Source: a virus
DNA: 24,902 nucleotides
Virus record (IMG/VR): IMGVR_UViG_3300020187_000202
Location: 1 to 24,902 of that record
Reading direction: 5' to 3' (one strand)
In this document: one piece after another, positions 972 to 15,004 of the stretch
Position numbering within the stretch: position 1 is the first letter of the stretch
Layout of the letters: each line of letters starts with the position of its first letter
Made by a program: the position numbers and the translations under genes
Notes under the pieces: model-generated
Database searches by the model: none
Seen by the model: the letters and a program-made list of their open reading frames with translations, nothing else
Told to the model about the DNA's origin: nothing

Positions 972-981
972 TATTATGTCA

Positions 982-1058
982 TCACCAACGAAAAGAATCG
1001 ATAGCTATGAAGAGGAAAGAACTACTCGAAGAAATAAAAAAACTAAACGAAAAACTAC
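982..1058 (+). repeat. 77-base direct repeat, copy B (upstream of replication gene)
   Basis: This is the second copy of the repeat at 111-187. It starts tcaccaacgaaaag and ends aaaaactac. A start like the leader peptide is kept (ATG 1007), but the TGA that closes the peptide in copy A is lost. It lies directly before the likely ATG of the replication protein at 1060, mirroring copy A before the methyltransferase ATG at 186. Confidence 0.85.
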
Positions 1059-1059
1059 T

Positions 1060-3057
1060 ATGCGAAATACAGGAAACACGGCAGGAAACTATGGAACTCG
1101 ATCTATCAGCATCGTTGAGCAAGCGAGAGCTACAGCGACTAAAGACTTCAAGCTCGAAAAGGTTATCGAATGGATCCGAAGCGGAAGCGGACGATTCGCC
1201 AAAAACATAACAGCAGTAAGAGAGGCGACCGAGAAGGGAGATCTGGACCGAGCCTCCGAGCTTAAGCGGAACCTCCCTGCGGTAATGTTTAGCGGACAGT
1301 TCGCCAGGAGATCGAGTAAGGATATAACGACTCACTCTGGACTTATCTGTATGGATGTCGATAAGATCGACGCTCCTGCGAAAAAGGTCGATGAAATGCG
1401 TTTCGATCCTCACATCGTCGCAGCCTTCGTCTCTCCCTCTGGCAACGGACTAAAAGCTATATTCGCTATCCCTGGCGACGTCGAGAAGCATCGCGACGCA
1501 TTCGAGGCAGCTAAACGCTACCTTTCGACCTACGGACTAGAAGCGGACGAGAGCGGGAAGGACGTAAGCAGGCTCTGCTTCCTCAGTCACGATGCCGAGC
1601 TACATTACGCTCCCGACGCAGTAGAGCTACCTGTGCATATCGAGGAGCAGTTTATTGCTCAGAAGGTTTCTAATGCTGCTACAGGCGATCGAATCGGCGA
1701 TCGATACGCTGCGGCTCCTAATGTTCGCGAGCGATCTGTAGCTATCCTGCAGCGTCTAGGATGGCAGATCCAGCGAGGCGACAGTCAGCGCACATACTGC
1801 ACTCGACCTGGTAAGCAGGGAGGCATATCGGGAGAGCTGCGCAGCGACGGATCGTTCTTCTGCTATACGGACAGCGCATCTCCTCTCGAGCCTCTGCAGA
1901 ACTACTCTCCCTTCGCGCTCTACACGGCTGCAGAGCATCGAGGAGACTTTAAGGCAGCAGCTCTAGCATTAGCAGAGGAGTTCGGCGATAACGAGCCTCC
2001 AGTAGACGGACGCGACTTCTACAATAAGACAGGAGCCGTCGAATCCCAGGAGGCAGAGATCGAAGATCGTAAGGCAGCAGCTATCGGATCTATGCCTACC
2101 TGGACATCCGCTAACGAGATCCCAGAAGATCTTAACAAGCTGATCATGCAGCGATATCCTGTTCTCATCGAGGGACTGCTGCACAGAGGGACCAAGATGG
2201 TCCTGGGAGGAGGATCTAAATCCTACAAGACCTGGACGCTACTTAATCTGGCAGCATCTGTAGCGAGCGGCACAGACTGGTTCGGACATAAGGTCGTAAA
2301 TACAGGACTCGATGTTATATTCCTTAACTTCGAGGTCCCTCATGAGTTCTTCCTAGATCGCGTTCGGGGCGTCTGTAAGGCGATGGATGTAGAACCTCCT
2401 GCGAATCTAAAGGTCTGGTCTCTTCGAGGCGTCTGCAATGATCTTAACCTTATCCTGGCAACGCTCCAGGAGCGGCTAAGTAATGGCTGCGCTCTCCTCT
2501 GCATCGATCCTATCTACAAGGCTATCGGAGATCGAGACGAGAACAGTGCAGGAGATATGGGTCTCCTAATGAATGAGATAGAGGCGATCGTCGAGAAGAC
2601 TGGAGCAGCCGTAGCATTCGGAGCGCACTACTCGAAAGGGAACCAGGCAGAGAAGGATCCTCTCGATCGTATAAGCGGCTCTGGCGTATTCGCTCGAGAT
2701 CCAGATACGATCATGGGACTAACAGCGCACGAAGAGGATAGCTGCTACACAGTCCACTCTGCGCTTCGAAACTTCCCAGGAAAAGAGCCATTCGTCGTCG
2801 AGTGGAACTTCCCTCTATTCAGCCTCCGAGACGATCTCGACGCTGGAAAGCTTAAGCGACCAGGGCAGAAAATCAGCGCGGGAAAAATCCTCGCAGAGAT
2901 TGATCATACGGGAGCCGATCCGAAGGACTTCGTCCCTGCGATGGCGTCGAAGTTCGATATAAGCGACCGAACCGTCTATCGGATCCTAAAAACTCTAAGC
3001 GACCAGTCTAAGATACATAAGACTGCTGGGAGCTACTTCATCACTCATAAATCATAG
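1060..3057 (+). CDS. Primase/helicase-type replication protein (BT4734/VirE-N-like domain + RepA-like ATPase)
   Basis: This is the only replication protein in view, of about 665 residues. The N-terminal part (about 70-190) has the pattern of the BT4734/VirE-N-like domain: SGLICMDVDK at 93-102 and SPSGNGLK at 125-132, associated with phage and mobile-element primase-helicase proteins. The C-terminal half is a RecA/RepA-type ATPase (AAA_25): Walker A GGGSKSYKT at 383-391, and Walker B LLCIDP ending at about D483. Residues 620-660 look like a winged helix (SDRTVYRILKTL). It probably unwinds or primes at the phage origin; direct primase activity is not shown by the motifs. The frame is open to 976, but residues from there to 1060 are the duplicated repeat, so I prefer ATG 1060; 976 is the alternative. 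The candidate origin at 4476-4708 lies 1.4 kb downstream. Confidence 0.8.
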   Translation: MRNTGNTAGNYGTRSISIVEQARATATKDFKLEKVIEWIRSGSGRFAKNITAVREATEKGDLDRASELKRNLPAVMFSGQFARRSSKDITTHSGLICMDVDKIDAPAKKVDEMRFDPHIVAAFVSPSGNGLKAIFAIPGDVEKHRDAFEAAKRYLSTYGLEADESGKDVSRLCFLSHDAELHYAPDAVELPVHIEEQFIAQKVSNAATGDRIGDRYAAAPNVRERSVAILQRLGWQIQRGDSQRTYCTRPGKQGGISGELRSDGSFFCYTDSASPLEPLQNYSPFALYTAAEHRGDFKAAALALAEEFGDNEPPVDGRDFYNKTGAVESQEAEIEDRKAAAIGSMPTWTSANEIPEDLNKLIMQRYPVLIEGLLHRGTKMVLGGGSKSYKTWTLLNLAASVASGTDWFGHKVVNTGLDVIFLNFEVPHEFFLDRVRGVCKAMDVEPPANLKVWSLRGVCNDLNLILATLQERLSNGCALLCIDPIYKAIGDRDENSAGDMGLLMNEIEAIVEKTGAAVAFGAHYSKGNQAEKDPLDRISGSGVFARDPDTIMGLTAHEEDSCYTVHSALRNFPGKEPFVVEWNFPLFSLRDDLDAGKLKRPGQKISAGKILAEIDHTGADPKDFVPAMASKFDISDRTVYRILKTLSDQSKIHKTAGSYFITHKS

Positions 3058-3951: not shown

Positions 3952-3958
3952 TCTCACA

Positions 3959-3987
3959 AGCTCCCAGCTAACCCTGGGAGCTTTTTT
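3959..3987 (+). terminator. Terminator of cassette 1
   Basis: The perfect stem AGCTCCCAG / CTGGGAGCT with loop CTAACC is followed by a T run and GTGCCT. It is nearly identical to the terminator at 4379-4407. Confidence 0.9.
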
Positions 3988-3990
3988 GTG

Positions 3991-4110
3991 CCTATAAAAA
4001 AAGGTGAAAAAAAAGTGAAATAACTATTGACTCCCTCTATTCGCTAGTCTTTATTCCTGTCTATCGGAGCGATTAACGCGACGAACTAAACACTACAAAA
4101 CACGCACATT
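3991..4110 (+). promoter_or_regulatory. Cassette promoter P2 with hairpin leader
   Basis: The A-tract with GTGAAA boxes and TTGACT at 4027-4032 is followed after 17 bases by TTTATT as -10. The 5' leader then holds a hairpin TCGGAGCG-ATTAA-CGCGACGA with a tandem G-A mismatch, and an A/C-rich stretch up to ATG 4111. The -35 box starts 84 bases before the ATG, the same spacing as P3 (83) and P4 (84). Confidence 0.75.
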
Positions 4111-4353
4111 ATGAAAATCACAAACGCCATCAAAAAATTAGAAAAAGCAGGATTCGAAGTTATCAACGACGGATCTCGTTTCTCTGCTAGTCGCAAAAAC
4201 GATATCATCGAATTTATACAAAACGGCGGAGGCTCAGATCAAGCAATCTGCATTCGCATTATGAGCGCAAATGATCACGACGACATGATGACGGATTACT
4301 GTGCAGGAACTTTCTGCGACAACATTAGCCAAGCGATTCGCATCGCAGGTTAA
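4111..4353 (+). CDS. Small cassette protein, 80 residues, conserved-looking phage hypothetical
   Basis: The product starts MKITNAIKKLEKAGFEVIND and reads as a compact alpha/beta domain: an N-terminal helix, then strands (RFSASRKNDIIEFIQNGG, QAICIRIMSANDHDD), then a YCAGTFCDNISQAIRIA end. The pattern resembles small uncharacterised phage proteins that I cannot name. It has its own promoter P2, a structured 5' leader and its own terminator 25 bases downstream. Arginine codons are CGT and CGC, which fits strong expression. ATG 4111 is supported by the constant promoter-to-start distance seen in two other cassettes. No catalytic motif is visible. Confidence 0.65.
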   Translation: MKITNAIKKLEKAGFEVINDGSRFSASRKNDIIEFIQNGGGSDQAICIRIMSANDHDDMMTDYCAGTFCDNISQAIRIAG

Positions 4354-4378
4354 TTTCTCACATAATCTGCATGACACA

Positions 4379-4407
4379 AGCTCTCAGCTAACCCTGGGAG
4401 CTTTTTT
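4379..4407 (+). terminator. Terminator of cassette 2
   Basis: The stem AGCTCTCAG / CTGGGAGCT contains one T-G pair and the loop CTAACC, then a T run and GTGCCT. It differs from the cassette-1 terminator by a single base in the hairpin. Confidence 0.85.
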
Positions 4408-4475
4408 GTGCCTGGAGCGACTGAGTAGACTCGAGCAGATCTGCAGGCTCTCCTGGGGCATCCTGGAGGCTGCTA

Positions 4476-4614
4476 TTGACAGGTTTTGACAGACTTTGAC
4501 ACCTGTCAAAAGCGAAAAGGGGGGATCCATGCTTTGACAGGCTCTGTCAATTTTTAATTCCCAGATGATTAGAGACTTAGGAGATTATTGACACGACTTT
4601 TGACATGGCTGTCA
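4476..4614 (+). repeat. TTGACA repeat cluster (candidate iterons or operators)
   Basis: Six direct TTGACA units lie at 4476, 4486, 4496, 4534, 4588 and 4600; the first three are exactly 10 bases apart, one helical turn. Inverted units TGTCAA or TGTCA lie at 4504, 4545 and 4610. They form three dyads with centres of 2, 3 and 4 bases, for example TTGACAG-GCT-CTGTCAA at 4534-4550. The cluster sits in a 417-base gap between genes, near the replication gene. It could be an iteron origin or a set of operators. It is not a simple promoter, because most units lack a -10 at normal distance. Confidence 0.75.
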
Positions 4615-4628
4615 TTTTTGCCGACACC

Positions 4629-4650
4629 TATATAGTAATGTCACTATATA
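4629..4650 (+). promoter_or_regulatory. AT-rich inverted repeat next to the repeat cluster
   Basis: TATATAGT and ACTATATA flank AATGTC. An 8-base perfect dyad this AT-rich beside iteron-like repeats could be a DNA-unwinding site or a repressor site; the sequence alone does not decide. Confidence 0.5.
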
Positions 4651-4655
4651 TTAAT

Positions 4656-4708
4656 AGAACGCATACGAGACATCGCCCCGCAAGGGGGCGGCTGTCTCTC
4701 CGCGTTCT
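4656..4708 (+). ncRNA. Three-tier hairpin, possible structured RNA or origin hairpin
   Basis: Nested arms pair in order: AGAACGC with GCGTTCT, GAGACA with TGTCTC, and CGCCCC with GGGGCG around a GCAA-type apical loop. Small internal loops separate the three stems. There is no T run, so it is not an ordinary terminator, and no ORF spans it. It could be a 5' leader element of the operon beginning at 4771, a small RNA, or a cruciform at an origin. Confidence 0.55.
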
Positions 4709-4735
4709 GCTGTCGATGTCGTAGCTCTCTATGAT

Positions 4736-4770
4736 TTGACTTTGAACACAAGATAATCGATACTGCGAGG
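4736..4770 (+). promoter_or_regulatory. Promoter at the head of the packaging operon
   Basis: TTGACT at 4736-4741, a 17-base spacer and GATACT at 4759-4764 make a good sigma-70-type promoter. The expected transcription start, seven bases past the -10, is the ATG at 4771 itself, so the mRNA may be leaderless. A GAGG lies too close to the ATG to act as a normal ribosome site. Confidence 0.65.
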
Positions 4771-5040
4771 ATGAATGAAACCTACGAACTTACAGCACTC
4801 CGATCTATTCGGGAGATCAGCATCGCTATCCGCGATCTAGAGAATCAATCGTCCGCGACTTCTAAGCGATATAAGAAAGGGATTAAGATCCTGCAGGCAG
4901 AGGTAGATGCTATCGAGGCGTCTCTCGATGACGGAGGAACTCTACCAGGCACAGAACCCTGGAACATCCAGAGCCAGCAGATAAAGCTACTTATCGCGGA
5001 TCCTAGCCTATCGAACATCGAGGAGGATAACTCGATCTGA
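4771..5040 (+). CDS. Small helical protein, 89 residues, unknown
   Basis: The product starts MNETYELTALRSIREISIAI. Residues 10-55 form a probable coiled coil (heptad-like Leu/Ile spacing through KRYKKGIKILQAEVDAIEASL), and the acidic C-terminus ends EEDNSI. I do not recognise a family. It is the first gene after the control region, and its stop is followed one base later by the ATG of the next gene (TGA-T-ATG), so the two are translationally linked. Its place before the small terminase suggests a late regulator or packaging accessory, but no motif shows this. Confidence 0.6.
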   Translation: MNETYELTALRSIREISIAIRDLENQSSATSKRYKKGIKILQAEVDAIEASLDDGGTLPGTEPWNIQSQQIKLLIADPSLSNIEEDNSI

Positions 5041-5041
5041 T

Positions 5042-5440
5042 ATGAGGACAGTAAGGATAATCGAGGGGGTAGACTATCCAGGGGATAAGCCAGAGGCGTC
5101 TGCGCTTCATCACTCCCTAGCCTGCGAGATAGCCGCCAGGATACAGCAGCTCGACTCGATTATCCCTGGCGAAGGCTGTTCTCCTGCTGGGATGCGGCTG
5201 GTCCACAGACTCTCGAGCATAGCCAGGAGATCTCCCAGAGCTTATCGACTGCTGCTGGATATGCTAACATCCCAGGAGAGCTTCTCGCTTTCGTTCGACG
5301 AGCTAGCATCGAGGCACAACCACTCGAGGCAGTCATGGCTTCAGAACGCACAGGCAGACGTAGAGATCGTCTCAGAGGTCTGGGCGGAGGTCGGAGCAGT
5401 CATGTCTGAGCTGATAAAGCGCAGATCGATCGATGATTAG
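5042..5440 (+). CDS. Hypothetical protein with possible helix-turn-helix, 132 residues
   Basis: The product starts MRTVRIIEGVDYPGDKPE and is mostly helical. Residues around 92-112 (FDELASRHNHSRQSWLQNAQ) read like a helix-turn-helix, so it may bind DNA: a late-gene activator, or a packaging partner given its place two genes from the terminase. There is no known family name that I can assign. It starts one base after the stop of the preceding gene and ends 100 bases before the small terminase gene. Cys, His and Arg are scattered without a metal-binding pattern. Confidence 0.55.
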   Translation: MRTVRIIEGVDYPGDKPEASALHHSLACEIAARIQQLDSIIPGEGCSPAGMRLVHRLSSIARRSPRAYRLLLDMLTSQESFSLSFDELASRHNHSRQSWLQNAQADVEIVSEVWAEVGAVMSELIKRRSIDD

Positions 5441-5492
5441 CCCCCCATGCTTTGGGTCCTCCCATGAAAAAATCCTCTGCAAGTCGCGAGCG

Positions 5493-5539
5493 TTACTCAG
5501 CGTTTTTATGAGATTCTGTCTCAAAGGCTAACTGAGTAA
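5493..5539 (+). promoter_or_regulatory. Inverted repeats just before the small terminase gene
   Basis: Outer arms TTACTCAG (5493-5500) and CTGAGTAA (5532-5539) enclose an inner dyad TGAGA-TTCTG-TCTCA (5509-5523). The outer arm ends one base before ATG 5541. In lambda-like phages the cos/terminase-binding region lies just before the small terminase gene, so this is a candidate packaging site. A translation-regulating hairpin over the start is the alternative. Confidence 0.45.
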
Positions 5540-8707: not shown

Positions 8708-8825
8708 TCTAAAAAAAAGTTAATAAAAAGTGAAAAAAGGTATTGACTCTCTCTATTCCGTAGTTCTTTATCTGTCATATCGGAGCGACAAACGCTTCGA
8801 ATCTAACCTAAAAAAACTACACGAC
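8708..8825 (+). promoter_or_regulatory. Cassette promoter P3 with hairpin leader
   Basis: The A-tract with a GTGAAA box and TTGACT at 8743-8748 is followed by TTTATC as -10. The leader hairpin CGGAGCG-ACAAA-CGCTTCG lies at 8781-8799, then an A-rich stretch and actacacgacATG. The leader is almost identical to that of P4; the -35 box starts 83 bases before ATG 8826. Confidence 0.8.
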
Positions 8826-9206
8826 ATGACTACTACAAAATCTACAATCGACAGCGACTACAAGCTCCTCACTTATTCTAACGGCGTTGAATACATCGTA
8901 TATAATTCTGCCTCCTGGCTCGTCGGTGCAGACGATGAGATAGGTAACTCGCTTAAGAAAAAATACTTCCTAAAGAAAGCTACGCTCGAGCAACGCATCA
9001 AACAATGGTTCGAAAAACAGCGTTACGTCTCGACTCTAGGTCGCTCCTGCGGGAACGTAAAAAGCATAGCCGTTAAGCTCGGAGTAACTACTAACAAAAT
9101 TTATTCTGTTCTGCGTAACTCAGACTGGTGCGATGCTAAGGAAAGCTATACATCTACTCGATATAACGACTGCAAAAGCTACTTCGTCTATCGCTACAAC
9201 GGATAA
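8826..9206 (+). CDS. Small cassette protein with possible helix-turn-helix, 126 residues
   Basis: The product starts MTTTKSTIDSDYKLLTYSNG and has two parts: a strand-rich N-terminal half (YKLLTYSNGVEYIVYNSASWLVG) and a helical C-terminal half containing NVKSIAVKLGVTTNKIYSVL, which reads like a helix-turn-helix. It may be a small transcription regulator, but no family is recognised. The frame is open back to 8730, but that part overlaps promoter P3 and its hairpin leader, so ATG 8826 is chosen; the constant promoter-to-start distance in the sister cassettes supports this. It lies between the large terminase and the gpW-like gene, where lambda-like phages have no such gene, so it is an inserted extra gene. 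Confidence 0.65.
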   Translation: MTTTKSTIDSDYKLLTYSNGVEYIVYNSASWLVGADDEIGNSLKKKYFLKKATLEQRIKQWFEKQRYVSTLGRSCGNVKSIAVKLGVTTNKIYSVLRNSDWCDAKESYTSTRYNDCKSYFVYRYNG

Positions 9207-9371: not shown

Positions 9372-9491
9372 GTCTAAAAAAAAGTGAAGAAATAGTGAAA
9401 TTAGCTATTGACGCTATCAGATCTGTCGTTCTTACTCTGTCATATCGGAGCGACAAACGCTTCGAATCTAACCTAAAAAAAACTACACGAC
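9372..9491 (+). promoter_or_regulatory. Cassette promoter P4 with hairpin leader
   Basis: The A-tract with two GTGAA boxes and TTGACG at 9408-9413 has a weak -10 (TTACTC). The leader hairpin CGGAGCG-ACAAA-CGCTTCG at 9446-9464 and the remainder up to ATG 9492 match the P3 leader over more than 50 bases with one inserted A. The -35 box starts 84 bases before the ATG. Confidence 0.8.
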
Positions 9492-13311: not shown

Positions 13312-13680
13312 ATGTCAGCAACTACTGTTCAAAATAACTCCCGCACTTTCGTAGCAGGCGAAGCACTAGATGCCTATATGCTTGTCGATATTGAGTCTGA
13401 TGGCTCAGTAACTAAAGCTTCGGAAACTAGCGTAGGCACTCAAATCGGATACACTATCGCTCCCACTGCTTCCGGCGAAGCAGCTGCAATCTCTCTCGTC
13501 GTTGGTGGTGGCACTAGCTACGCAATCGCAGACGGCGCAGTCGCTATCGGACAAGTCATTTACTCTGCGGCTGGAGGTAAAGTCTCCGCTACTGGAGTCG
13601 GTGCGCAACGAATCGGACTCGCTGTTTCTGCAGCAACTGCAGATGGCGACGTTATCGAAGTTATCGCATACCCTAACTAA
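13312..13680 (+). CDS. Capsid decoration protein, DUF2190-like, copy 1
   Basis: The 122-residue product shows the DUF2190 pattern: AGEALDAYMLVDIESDGSVTKA, then IGYTIAPTASGEAAAISL, GGGTSYAIADGAVAIGQVIY, and IGLAVSAATADGDVIEVIA. Proteins of this family stud or stabilise capsids, in the position of lambda gpD between the protease-scaffold and capsid genes. Its first 66 bases are nearly identical to those of the next gene, so the pair is a tandem duplication. Codon use favours CGC/GCA/CTC, as expected for a highly expressed structural protein. The start has no Shine-Dalgarno; it is preceded by A/T-rich ttataattatcATG. Confidence 0.8.
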   Translation: MSATTVQNNSRTFVAGEALDAYMLVDIESDGSVTKASETSVGTQIGYTIAPTASGEAAAISLVVGGGTSYAIADGAVAIGQVIYSAAGGKVSATGVGAQRIGLAVSAATADGDVIEVIAYPN

Positions 13681-13697
13681 TCTAAACTAAAATCATT

Positions 13698-14063
13698 ATG
13701 TCAGCAACTACTGTTCAAAATAACTCCCGCACTTTCGTAGCAGGTGAAGCACTCGATGCCTATCTGCTCGTAAAAGTCGAATCAGACGCAACCGTCATTA
13801 AAGCTACTGCATCTGCAAGCGAGCCTAAGGTCGGCTTCACTATCGCTCCTGCCGCTTCTGGCGAATCGGTTTCGGTCTCTCTCTCTCACGGAGGAGGCAC
13901 AAGCTACGGCATCGCTTCTGAAGCACTAGCAATCGGCGACAAAGTCTTCGGCGATGCAGGCGGCAAGCTTGCAGCAGCAGGTGGCGCAGGCGATCTCGTA
14001 GGCATTACTCTAACAGCAGCAACTGCAGACGGCGATGTCGTCGAGGTAGCTACAATCTACTAA
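13698..14063 (+). CDS. Capsid decoration protein, DUF2190-like, copy 2
   Basis: The 121-residue paralogue of the preceding protein has the same repeating beta-strand pattern (AGEALDAYLLVKVESDATVIKA, GFTIAPAASGESVSVSL, AIGDKVFGDAGGKLAAAGGAG). The first 22 codons differ from copy 1 at only two bases, whereas the rest has drifted to roughly half identity, which suggests gene conversion or strong constraint at the 5' end. Two versions may occupy different capsid sites, or one may be specialised for display. It starts 18 bases past the stop of copy 1 and ends 20 bases before the capsid gene. Confidence 0.8.
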   Translation: MSATTVQNNSRTFVAGEALDAYLLVKVESDATVIKATASASEPKVGFTIAPAASGESVSVSLSHGGGTSYGIASEALAIGDKVFGDAGGKLAAAGGAGDLVGITLTAATADGDVVEVATIY

Positions 14064-14083
14064 TCAATTAAATATAATATATC

Positions 14084-15004
14084 ATGAGCTTATATACTTC
14101 AGCTACATTCAATCCTGTCCTCTCAGAGGCACTTAACAAGATCGGCGAGAACAAATTCGTCGGAACTCAGATCCTTCCTGTTCGCGATGTCGCGACTAAG
14201 ACAGGTCAGTATCCTGTATTCGGCGACGACCAGTTCGATCTTAACGCATCGGTAGCTCGCGCTGCTGGTTCTGCATTCGCTCGTCGCGACTTCGCTTACG
14301 GTCAGCAAGACTACTCCTGTCAGCAATACGCTCTGGAAGGTCTGCTCCCAGACGAAGACGTTACTAAAGCAAGCGACGACGGCGTATCCGATTCGGCAGC
14401 AGCTATCGCTCAGAAGCTTCAGCGCGATATCATGGTAGGTCACGAACTCCGCGTCGCAGCAGCTATCAATGGCGCAGCGTTTAACGCGACTGCTCAAACA
14501 GGCGGCGCGATGTCTGACGCAGACGCAGCTAAACCAATCAGCTCGATCCAGAACGCAGTTGAGCGTCTCAACGGAAACGGCTTCTATGATAGCCTCGCTC
14601 TTATCATCGAGACTTCTCTCTTCAACGAGATGATTAACACTGTAGACGTTCGCGGGATCTTTAACGGAAATGGTCAATACACCAATCGCCAGGTCATCCT
14701 CGACGCTCTCGGCGTTAATCAAATCATCCTCTGCCCTACTCGCTATAACAGCGCGGCTAAGGGTAAGGCAGCAGCTCGCACTAAGATCTGGTCCGACTCG
14801 ACTTACTTCGTAGGTCAAGTAGGCGGCGGCGACTTCGCTAACGGCGGCTTCGGTCGGACTCTCGCTTACACTCCAGACGGAGGCGTATTCAGCGCAGAGT
14901 CTTATCGCGACGAGCCTATTAAGAGCGATGTCCTTCGCGTCTTCAATAGCGTAGACGAGGCGATCATCAATACGAACGCCTGCGAAAAGATCACAGCAGC
15001 GTAG
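14084..15004 (+). CDS. Major capsid protein
   Basis: This 306-residue protein builds the capsid shell. It starts MSLYTSATFNPVLSEALNKI and has the features of HK97-fold capsid proteins of the lambda/P22-like type without a cleaved delta domain: an N-arm, an E-loop region (VRDVATKTGQYPVFGDDQF), a spine helix (SDSAAAIAQKLQRDIMVGHE) and a P-domain with a long helix before LALIIETSLFNEMINT. A separate protease-scaffold upstream fits. The gene has the most biased codon use in the window (almost only CGC and CGT for arginine), as expected for the most abundant virion protein, and is followed by a strong terminator at 15029-15058. It is the last gene of the head operon. Confidence 0.9.
   Translation: MSLYTSATFNPVLSEALNKIGENKFVGTQILPVRDVATKTGQYPVFGDDQFDLNASVARAAGSAFARRDFAYGQQDYSCQQYALEGLLPDEDVTKASDDGVSDSAAAIAQKLQRDIMVGHELRVAAAINGAAFNATAQTGGAMSDADAAKPISSIQNAVERLNGNGFYDSLALIIETSLFNEMINTVDVRGIFNGNGQYTNRQVILDALGVNQIILCPTRYNSAAKGKAAARTKIWSDSTYFVGQVGGGDFANGGFGRTLAYTPDGGVFSAESYRDEPIKSDVLRVFNSVDEAIINTNACEKITAA

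Follow-up and report, generated by a model that had tools for sequence, protein, structure and literature searches.

A TTGACA array beside the replication gene of a tailed phage: a probable replication origin with words that vary with the DNA-binding helix of Rep

The tandem and inverted TTGACA words that follow the replication gene (rep) of this lambda-like tailed phage are probably iterons, bound by the phage's own Rep protein at its replication origin. The window, that is, the whole stretch of DNA that was analysed (24,902 nt), is a fragment of the phage genome with a terminase of the gpA type (Pfam). We infer origin activity, melting, priming and the binding of Rep at the array from sequence comparisons. 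The sequence-only reading of this locus had left a choice between an iteron origin and a multi-operator switch; an origin is supported by the conservation of the array beside the replication gene, by an AT-rich element and by the co-variation of array word and Rep helix, while a switch, though conceivable, is not needed.

Organization of the array

The repeats and the conserved genes beyond them are arranged as follows.

4476+, 4486+, 4496+, 4504-, 4534+, 4545-, 4588+, 4600+: exact TTGACA/TGTCAA units (n=8)
4476..4509, no strand: block A, three direct boxes at 10-bp spacing and an inverted one
4534..4550, no strand: block B, inverted pair TTGACAggctcTGTCAA
4588..4623, no strand: block C, TTGACA-N6-TTGACA-N4-TGTCAT-TTTTGCCG
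4771..5040, + strand: ORF 4771, conserved, next to the array
5042..5440, + strand: ORF 5042, conserved, all-helical protein

With TGTCAT at 4610 as the ninth TGACA/TGTCA unit, all nine lie within 4476-4614 (139 bp), and three of them are inverted. The count of nine units in three groups, each closed by an inverted unit, was confirmed on recounting, and the 10-base distance noted earlier between the first three direct units (4476, 4486, 4496) is exact. The half-sites of the inverted pairs are not equally spaced (2, 4 and 5 bp). In 500 dinucleotide shuffles of the whole window the densest 140 bp held at most 4 units (mean 2.2) against 9 in the real sequence, and the maximum was again 4 in 5,000 dinucleotide shuffles of 4360-4770. 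The region had been described as non-coding, which holds except for a mechanical 62-aa ORF (4301-4489) that is without support and overlaps the first unit. The functional unit is larger than the array: it also takes in the TATA element and a stem-loop and covers about 4476-4710. A scan of the collection for the TTGACA N4 x3 pattern returned 70 places, among them the relatives' own arrays in L003 and L096; most of the remaining places are probably unrelated to the array.

On its other side the array is separated from rep by a small promoter-ORF-terminator cassette with ORF 4111, in place of which relatives carry other small ORFs. ORF 4111 is flanked by nearly identical 39-nt intrinsic terminators (3955-3993 and 4375-4413). 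A leader- or promoter-like repeat of about 109 bp (...GTGAAATAACTATTGACT...) occurs in three copies, at 3992-4100, 8708-8816 and 9373-9481, each before small ORFs; these are probably repeated phage promoters for cargo genes.

Conservation and word switching in relatives

A first scan of genome contigs gave no relative, and a profile scan of them only remote ones; among IMG/VR contigs, relatives of the window are numerous. The sequence-only reading had staked itself on conservation of the array, and this was found: in all relatives with a readable stretch the array sits between rep and ORF 4771. Nine of them (L003, L005, L006, L020, L022, L038, L152, L154 and L155) have a TTGACA array in the same place and with similar block spacing, and the letters between the boxes vary while placement holds. 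Block A is reduced to 2-3 boxes in relatives and mostly lost in L155; the best conserved part is block C with the following TTTTGCCG.CACCTATATAG.

Other relatives have an array in the orthologous gap between rep and ORF 4771 that is written in a different word. In most loci the array word forms a denser cluster than any other 6-mer of the locus. L006, L155 and L189 are exceptions and L183 shows a tie, since coding or other repeats there match or surpass the array. The words, and the Rep recognition helices and residues at position 668 that go with them, are these.

TTGACA: recognition helix SDRTVYR or SSRSIYR; Tyr
ACGACA (L165/L168, L166/L167, L039): recognition helix xxRT[VI]QR in three lineages; Gln
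GCGACA (L188, L189): recognition helix GARTVER; Glu
TCCCGA (L156): recognition helix SEKTIRN; Arg
TTGGAA (L186): recognition helix GKSTVYS; Tyr
TGAGCA (L033): Rep with a different C-terminus

L181 has the helix TNRTIHR, on a contig that does not include the array. The GCGACA-type origin of L188 (10052-10230) also holds a second word, ACGCAT, in five copies. In L194, a GGCGGA array of 8 direct and inverted copies (9026-9170) directly follows a remote Rep, which shows 47% identity in the helicase part and has a different C-terminus; from this case, the layout of rep followed by an array may be widespread.

The Rep protein

Rep combines in one ORF the activities that RSF1010 divides among RepA, RepB' and RepC.

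976..3057, + strand: Rep, with a BT4734-like (archaeo-eukaryotic-type) primase N-terminus, a RepA/DnaB-type RecA-fold helicase and a C-terminal winged helix
2875..3054, + strand: C-terminal winged helix of Rep, recognition helix ..SDRTVYRILKTL.., with Tyr668 as the word-tracking residue

Pfam matches are to BT4734-like_N (PF08800, E 1e-23) and AAA_25 (PF13481, E 1e-25). The BT4734-like family has been placed in the archaeo-eukaryotic primase superfamily (PMC5862659). The alignment of the Rep family (A1), in which the motif ICMD.D is invariant, matches RSF1010 RepA (1g8y) by hmmsearch with E 7e-4. The AlphaFold2 model of the C-terminal domain has the order H-H-H-strand-strand, with pLDDT 83-90 within the domain, and in VIA-align it matches many winged-helix chains with Z of about 6-8, which establishes the fold only. 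The P4 origin-binding domain is absent from the fold-match lists for the Rep C-terminus, an absence that is uninformative. An 81-bp repeat (111-191 and 982-1062, 94%) precedes the DNA methyltransferase and rep; Rep of the relatives begins after it, which makes the repeat a probable leader, and the mechanically called proteins extend too far at their N-termini.

Array word and recognition helix

In a scan of the 693 Rep positions, complete separation of the TTGACA from the ACGACA phages was seen at two residues only, 638 (Ile/Val) and 668 (Tyr/Gln), and position 668 shows four residue types across the five words. When core distance is taken into account, the Rep windows with the strongest association to the word are at 656-666, abutting the recognition helix. 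The association of word and helix follows phylogeny in some part, core distance alone correlating at 0.70. In a tree of the Rep core, i.e. Rep without the C-terminal domain, L165/L168 (ACGACA, Gln) are nested in the TTGACA clade with 100/97 support, far from the other ACGACA phages. On this tree, pairs of ACGACA with Gln are thus split by a clade with TTGACA and Tyr, which means that word and residue changed together more than once. For L166/L167 the word ACGACA was foreseen from the Gln helix before the array had been inspected, and ACGACA was then found. The corresponding guess of TTGACA for L186, from its Tyr, was wrong: the array there reads TTGGAA, which shares TTG with TTGACA, a likeness seen post hoc. 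Tyr668 is therefore insufficient to fix the word, and a code must span at least several residues.

The neighbouring proteins behave differently. No column of ORF 4771 separates TTGACA from ACGACA phages, nor does any column of ORF 5042 in the half that is covered by more than one ACGACA phage, and the recognition helix of the terminase small subunit (TerS) is alike in TTGACA and TCCCGA phages. Since the word tracks the Rep helix and none of these three, the Rep winged helix is the likely reader of the array, and the covariation is good, if indirect, evidence that Rep would bind there. Of the binders suggested earlier, the product of the replication gene is now favoured because the words co-vary with its putative DNA-binding helix, and the protein encoded at 5042 is unlikely, its conserved core RQSWLQNAQ being unchanged when the array word changes. 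A fold search with ORF 5042 gave no PDB match worth naming.

Tentatively, and with somewhat less than even confidence, these phages may be viewed as a marine family with all-in-one initiators and origin boxes that have undergone repeated switches of specificity, in part by changes of single residues in the recognition helix (Tyr/Gln/Glu at 668), amounting to a natural recognition code for replication origins. As the independent word switches are few, such a code is put forward as a hypothesis. Escape from competitors that target the origin, or incompatibility of phages that infect the same cell, may be what drives the switching.

AT-rich element and stem-loop

Two further elements follow the boxes.

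4622..4643, no strand: AT-rich element CGACACCTATATAGTAATGTCA between inverted boxes, candidate unwinding site
4656..4709, + strand: stem-loop AGAACGC..GAGACATCGCC..GGCGGCTGTCTC..GCGTTCT, with compensatory changes

The AT-rich stretch beside the repeats includes CCTATATAGTAAT and ACTATATATTAATAG at 4628-4657. The CCTATATAG element, standing between inverted boxes, is kept in relatives; CCTATATAGTAAT or TATAAGGAT is found between inverted boxes in nearly all classes, and the TATA core is kept in most box classes and recurs in all of those with winged-helix Reps, being weaker in L039 (CCCTAAAGG).

The stem-loop is a candidate priming hairpin (ssi-like) or a structured RNA. It consists, in the TTGACA and the L165-type phages, of two helices, an outer and an inner one, and an internal loop ATAC/TCC. 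Its alignment has 16 pairs, 95.8% of cells paired and 5 pairs changed on both sides. The covariation score is 0.352 (shuffled, 0.131 +/- 0.028; slid controls, <=0.144), and is favoured by the structure having been derived from the same alignment. Stability gives a z of -3.5 for the region as RNA and -4.9 as DNA; G-U pairs, present at several positions, favour RNA without deciding the matter. In distant classes a hairpin stands in the same place, with arms that contain or resemble the box of that class. No Rfam family matches 4656-4709. Between the stem-loop and ORF 4771, L165 (6559-6621) and L168 have a 63-nt tRNA-like element, for which Rfam tRNA scores 33.6 bits in L165, above gathering, while ARAGORN calls nothing; in its start and T-arm the element is similar to the tRNA-like portion of tmRNA.

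In the proposed mechanism, the C-terminal winged helix would bring Rep to the boxes, whose close packing would serve to load the RepA-type helicase ring of the protein. The CCTATATAG element, placed between inverted boxes, would melt, and the stem-loop at 4656-4709, once single-stranded, would provide the site, at or next to it, for a first primer laid down by the Rep primase domain. Overall this would be the layout of RSF1010 oriV with a single fused protein at work, as is the case for phage P4. No DnaA box (TTWTNCACA) occurs anywhere in the window, which is tolerable because a self-loading Rep would not need one. Cumulative GC skew, proposed earlier as a check, rises steadily without an extremum at the array in four complete or near-complete relatives; as almost all genes lie on one strand, it neither supports nor refutes an origin.

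The cos site

The position of the cohesive ends was mapped from contig ends of relatives.

5482..5495, no strand: cos site, 14-nt cohesive end AGTCGCGAGCGTTA

Five relatives' contigs (L002, L013, L021, L023 and L025) start exactly at AGTCGC upstream of terS. The right-end contigs L152 and L155 end exactly 14 nt past this start point; further ones end close to it, at distances from a few bases up to some tens of bases. The array therefore lies about 0.9 kb from the right end of the virion DNA and is joined to terS only upon circularisation. Its earlier placement before the late operon thus fails for the virion, where cos intervenes, and stands for the circular genome. Further into the window, tandem duplicated ORFs (13312-13680 and 13698-14063, 80% identical as DNA in their first 133 bp) precede a capsid-like ORF at 14084 and are likely to encode decoration or stabilisation proteins.

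Alternative explanations

Binding by Rep would also fit a purely regulatory site. The array could be such a region and not an origin, with Rep, alone or with host factors, repressing or timing a CCTATATAG promoter from which the stem-loop leader and ORFs 4771 and 5042 would be transcribed, together with the late operon once the genome is circular. It does lie between rep and a run of genes that extends across cos to the head genes, the letters of the CCTATATAG element, 19-25 nt ahead of the stem-loop, resemble a -10, and the stem-loop, with its G-U pairs and compensatory changes, is RNA-like. One weak sigma-70-like match ends at 4636. However, relatives lack a -35 at the right distance, promoter-like sites in a sigma-70 consensus scan were no commoner than in shuffles, and block A, 110-150 bp upstream, exceeds what an operator needs. 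Simple autoregulation of rep is impossible, as the array is downstream of that gene. An exclusively regulatory role is thus rather unlikely, while the same boxes may regulate the downstream genes as well as serve an origin, a coexistence that is compatible with all the evidence.

Stoperator-like arrays comprise many operators in direct and inverted pairs. The boxes would fit this pattern if they were operators of a separate repressor, in an immunity or lysis-lysogeny switch, that co-vary with Rep by chance, and immunity specificities typically show such differences in word from one close relative to another. The co-variation is centred on the Rep recognition helix, no repressor or integrase is found among the ten early-region proteins of the relative G009 or the families detected in the window, and the variable half-site spacing is unlike that of a rigid dimeric repressor, all of which makes this explanation improbable.

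A packaging signal, with the boxes as cosB-like or pac sites for the terminase small subunit, was suggested by the proximity of the lambda-like terminase operon and cos (0.9 kb) and by the HTH of TerS. It was dropped once cos was mapped to 5482-5495, 870 bp from the array, and is very improbable: the TerS recognition helix does not track the word, and in L029 and L039, with extra genes between ORF 5042 and terS, the array is still with rep.

Stacked promoters, with TTGACA as the consensus -35 hexamer of sigma-70, can be dismissed almost entirely, as the word becomes ACGACA, GCGACA, TCCCGA or TTGGAA in relatives, three of nine units are inverted and the scan found no good -10 box 16-18 bp after the array units. 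A promoter-like site does occur outside the array.

4736..4765, + strand: promoter-like TTGACT-17-GATACT, before ORF 4771

Its -35-like hexamer, about 30 bp before ORF 4771, is TTGACA or TTGACT in 12 of 13 relatives, irrespective of the word that their arrays use. This hexamer is kept while the array words switch, which argues that the latter are not promoter hexamers.

Comparison with known origins

Origins of uncultivated phages are seldom identified from sequence; here the comparative evidence points to an origin, its initiator, the DNA-reading helix and a candidate specificity residue. The natural pairs of word and helix are a ready series for swap tests. A primase-helicase-winged helix protein beside repeats and a stem-loop is a layout that could locate origins in other viral contigs. 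The kind of origin is already known, and its all-in-one variant appears to be new.

In iteron plasmids and at the lambda O origin, phased short repeats lie by an AT-rich unwinding element and adjoin the initiator gene. The array shares these features: phased short repeats by an AT-rich element, next to the gene of the initiator. In lambda, by contrast, the iterons are inside the O gene and P and host DnaB are needed, while here the helicase belongs to the initiator.

RSF1010 has iterons for RepC, unwinding by RepA, and priming by RepB' 3' of ssi stem-loops (PMC4234260). By layout, the order of iterons, AT-rich element and stem-loop is that of its oriV, the helicase domain of Rep matches RepA (1g8y), and the primase domain is of the AEP type. 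The three activities are here in one polypeptide, however, the boxes are 6 bp long and of mixed orientation instead of direct iterons of about 20 bp, and one stem-loop is seen in place of two ssi sites (ssiA/ssiB).

Alpha of phage P4 has an SF3-type helicase. Like Rep, it is a single protein with primase, helicase and C-terminal winged helix (in Rep, as predicted by AlphaFold2) that is associated with short repeats; its winged helix acts on the origin repeats and its primase is Toprim-type (PMC4234260). Rep differs in its BT4734/AEP-type primase and RepA/RecA-type helicase (Pfam BT4734-like_N, AAA_25). No second array resembling P4 crr was found here.

ORF904 of pRN1 and the Rep of Bordetella phage BIP-1 are also primase-helicase-winged helix proteins with the origin directly downstream of rep, and their stem-loop, in pRN1 directly downstream of the rep gene, is kept in structure and not in sequence (PMC4234260). 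pRN1 differs in its SF3 helicase and in lacking iterons, whereas the present locus combines iterons with a stem-loop.

A parallel to the word switching is in the PLE satellites of Vibrio phage ICP1, where the DNA-binding domain of Rep and the origin iterons co-vary and switch together and the remainder of Rep is conserved (PMC8263062). The present results suggest that origin identity likewise diversifies among close phage relatives. In the PLEs, the domain is of the RepA_N type and sits at the opposite protein end, the iterons are about 30 bp long and modules are swapped, whereas here a few residues of one helix track a short word.
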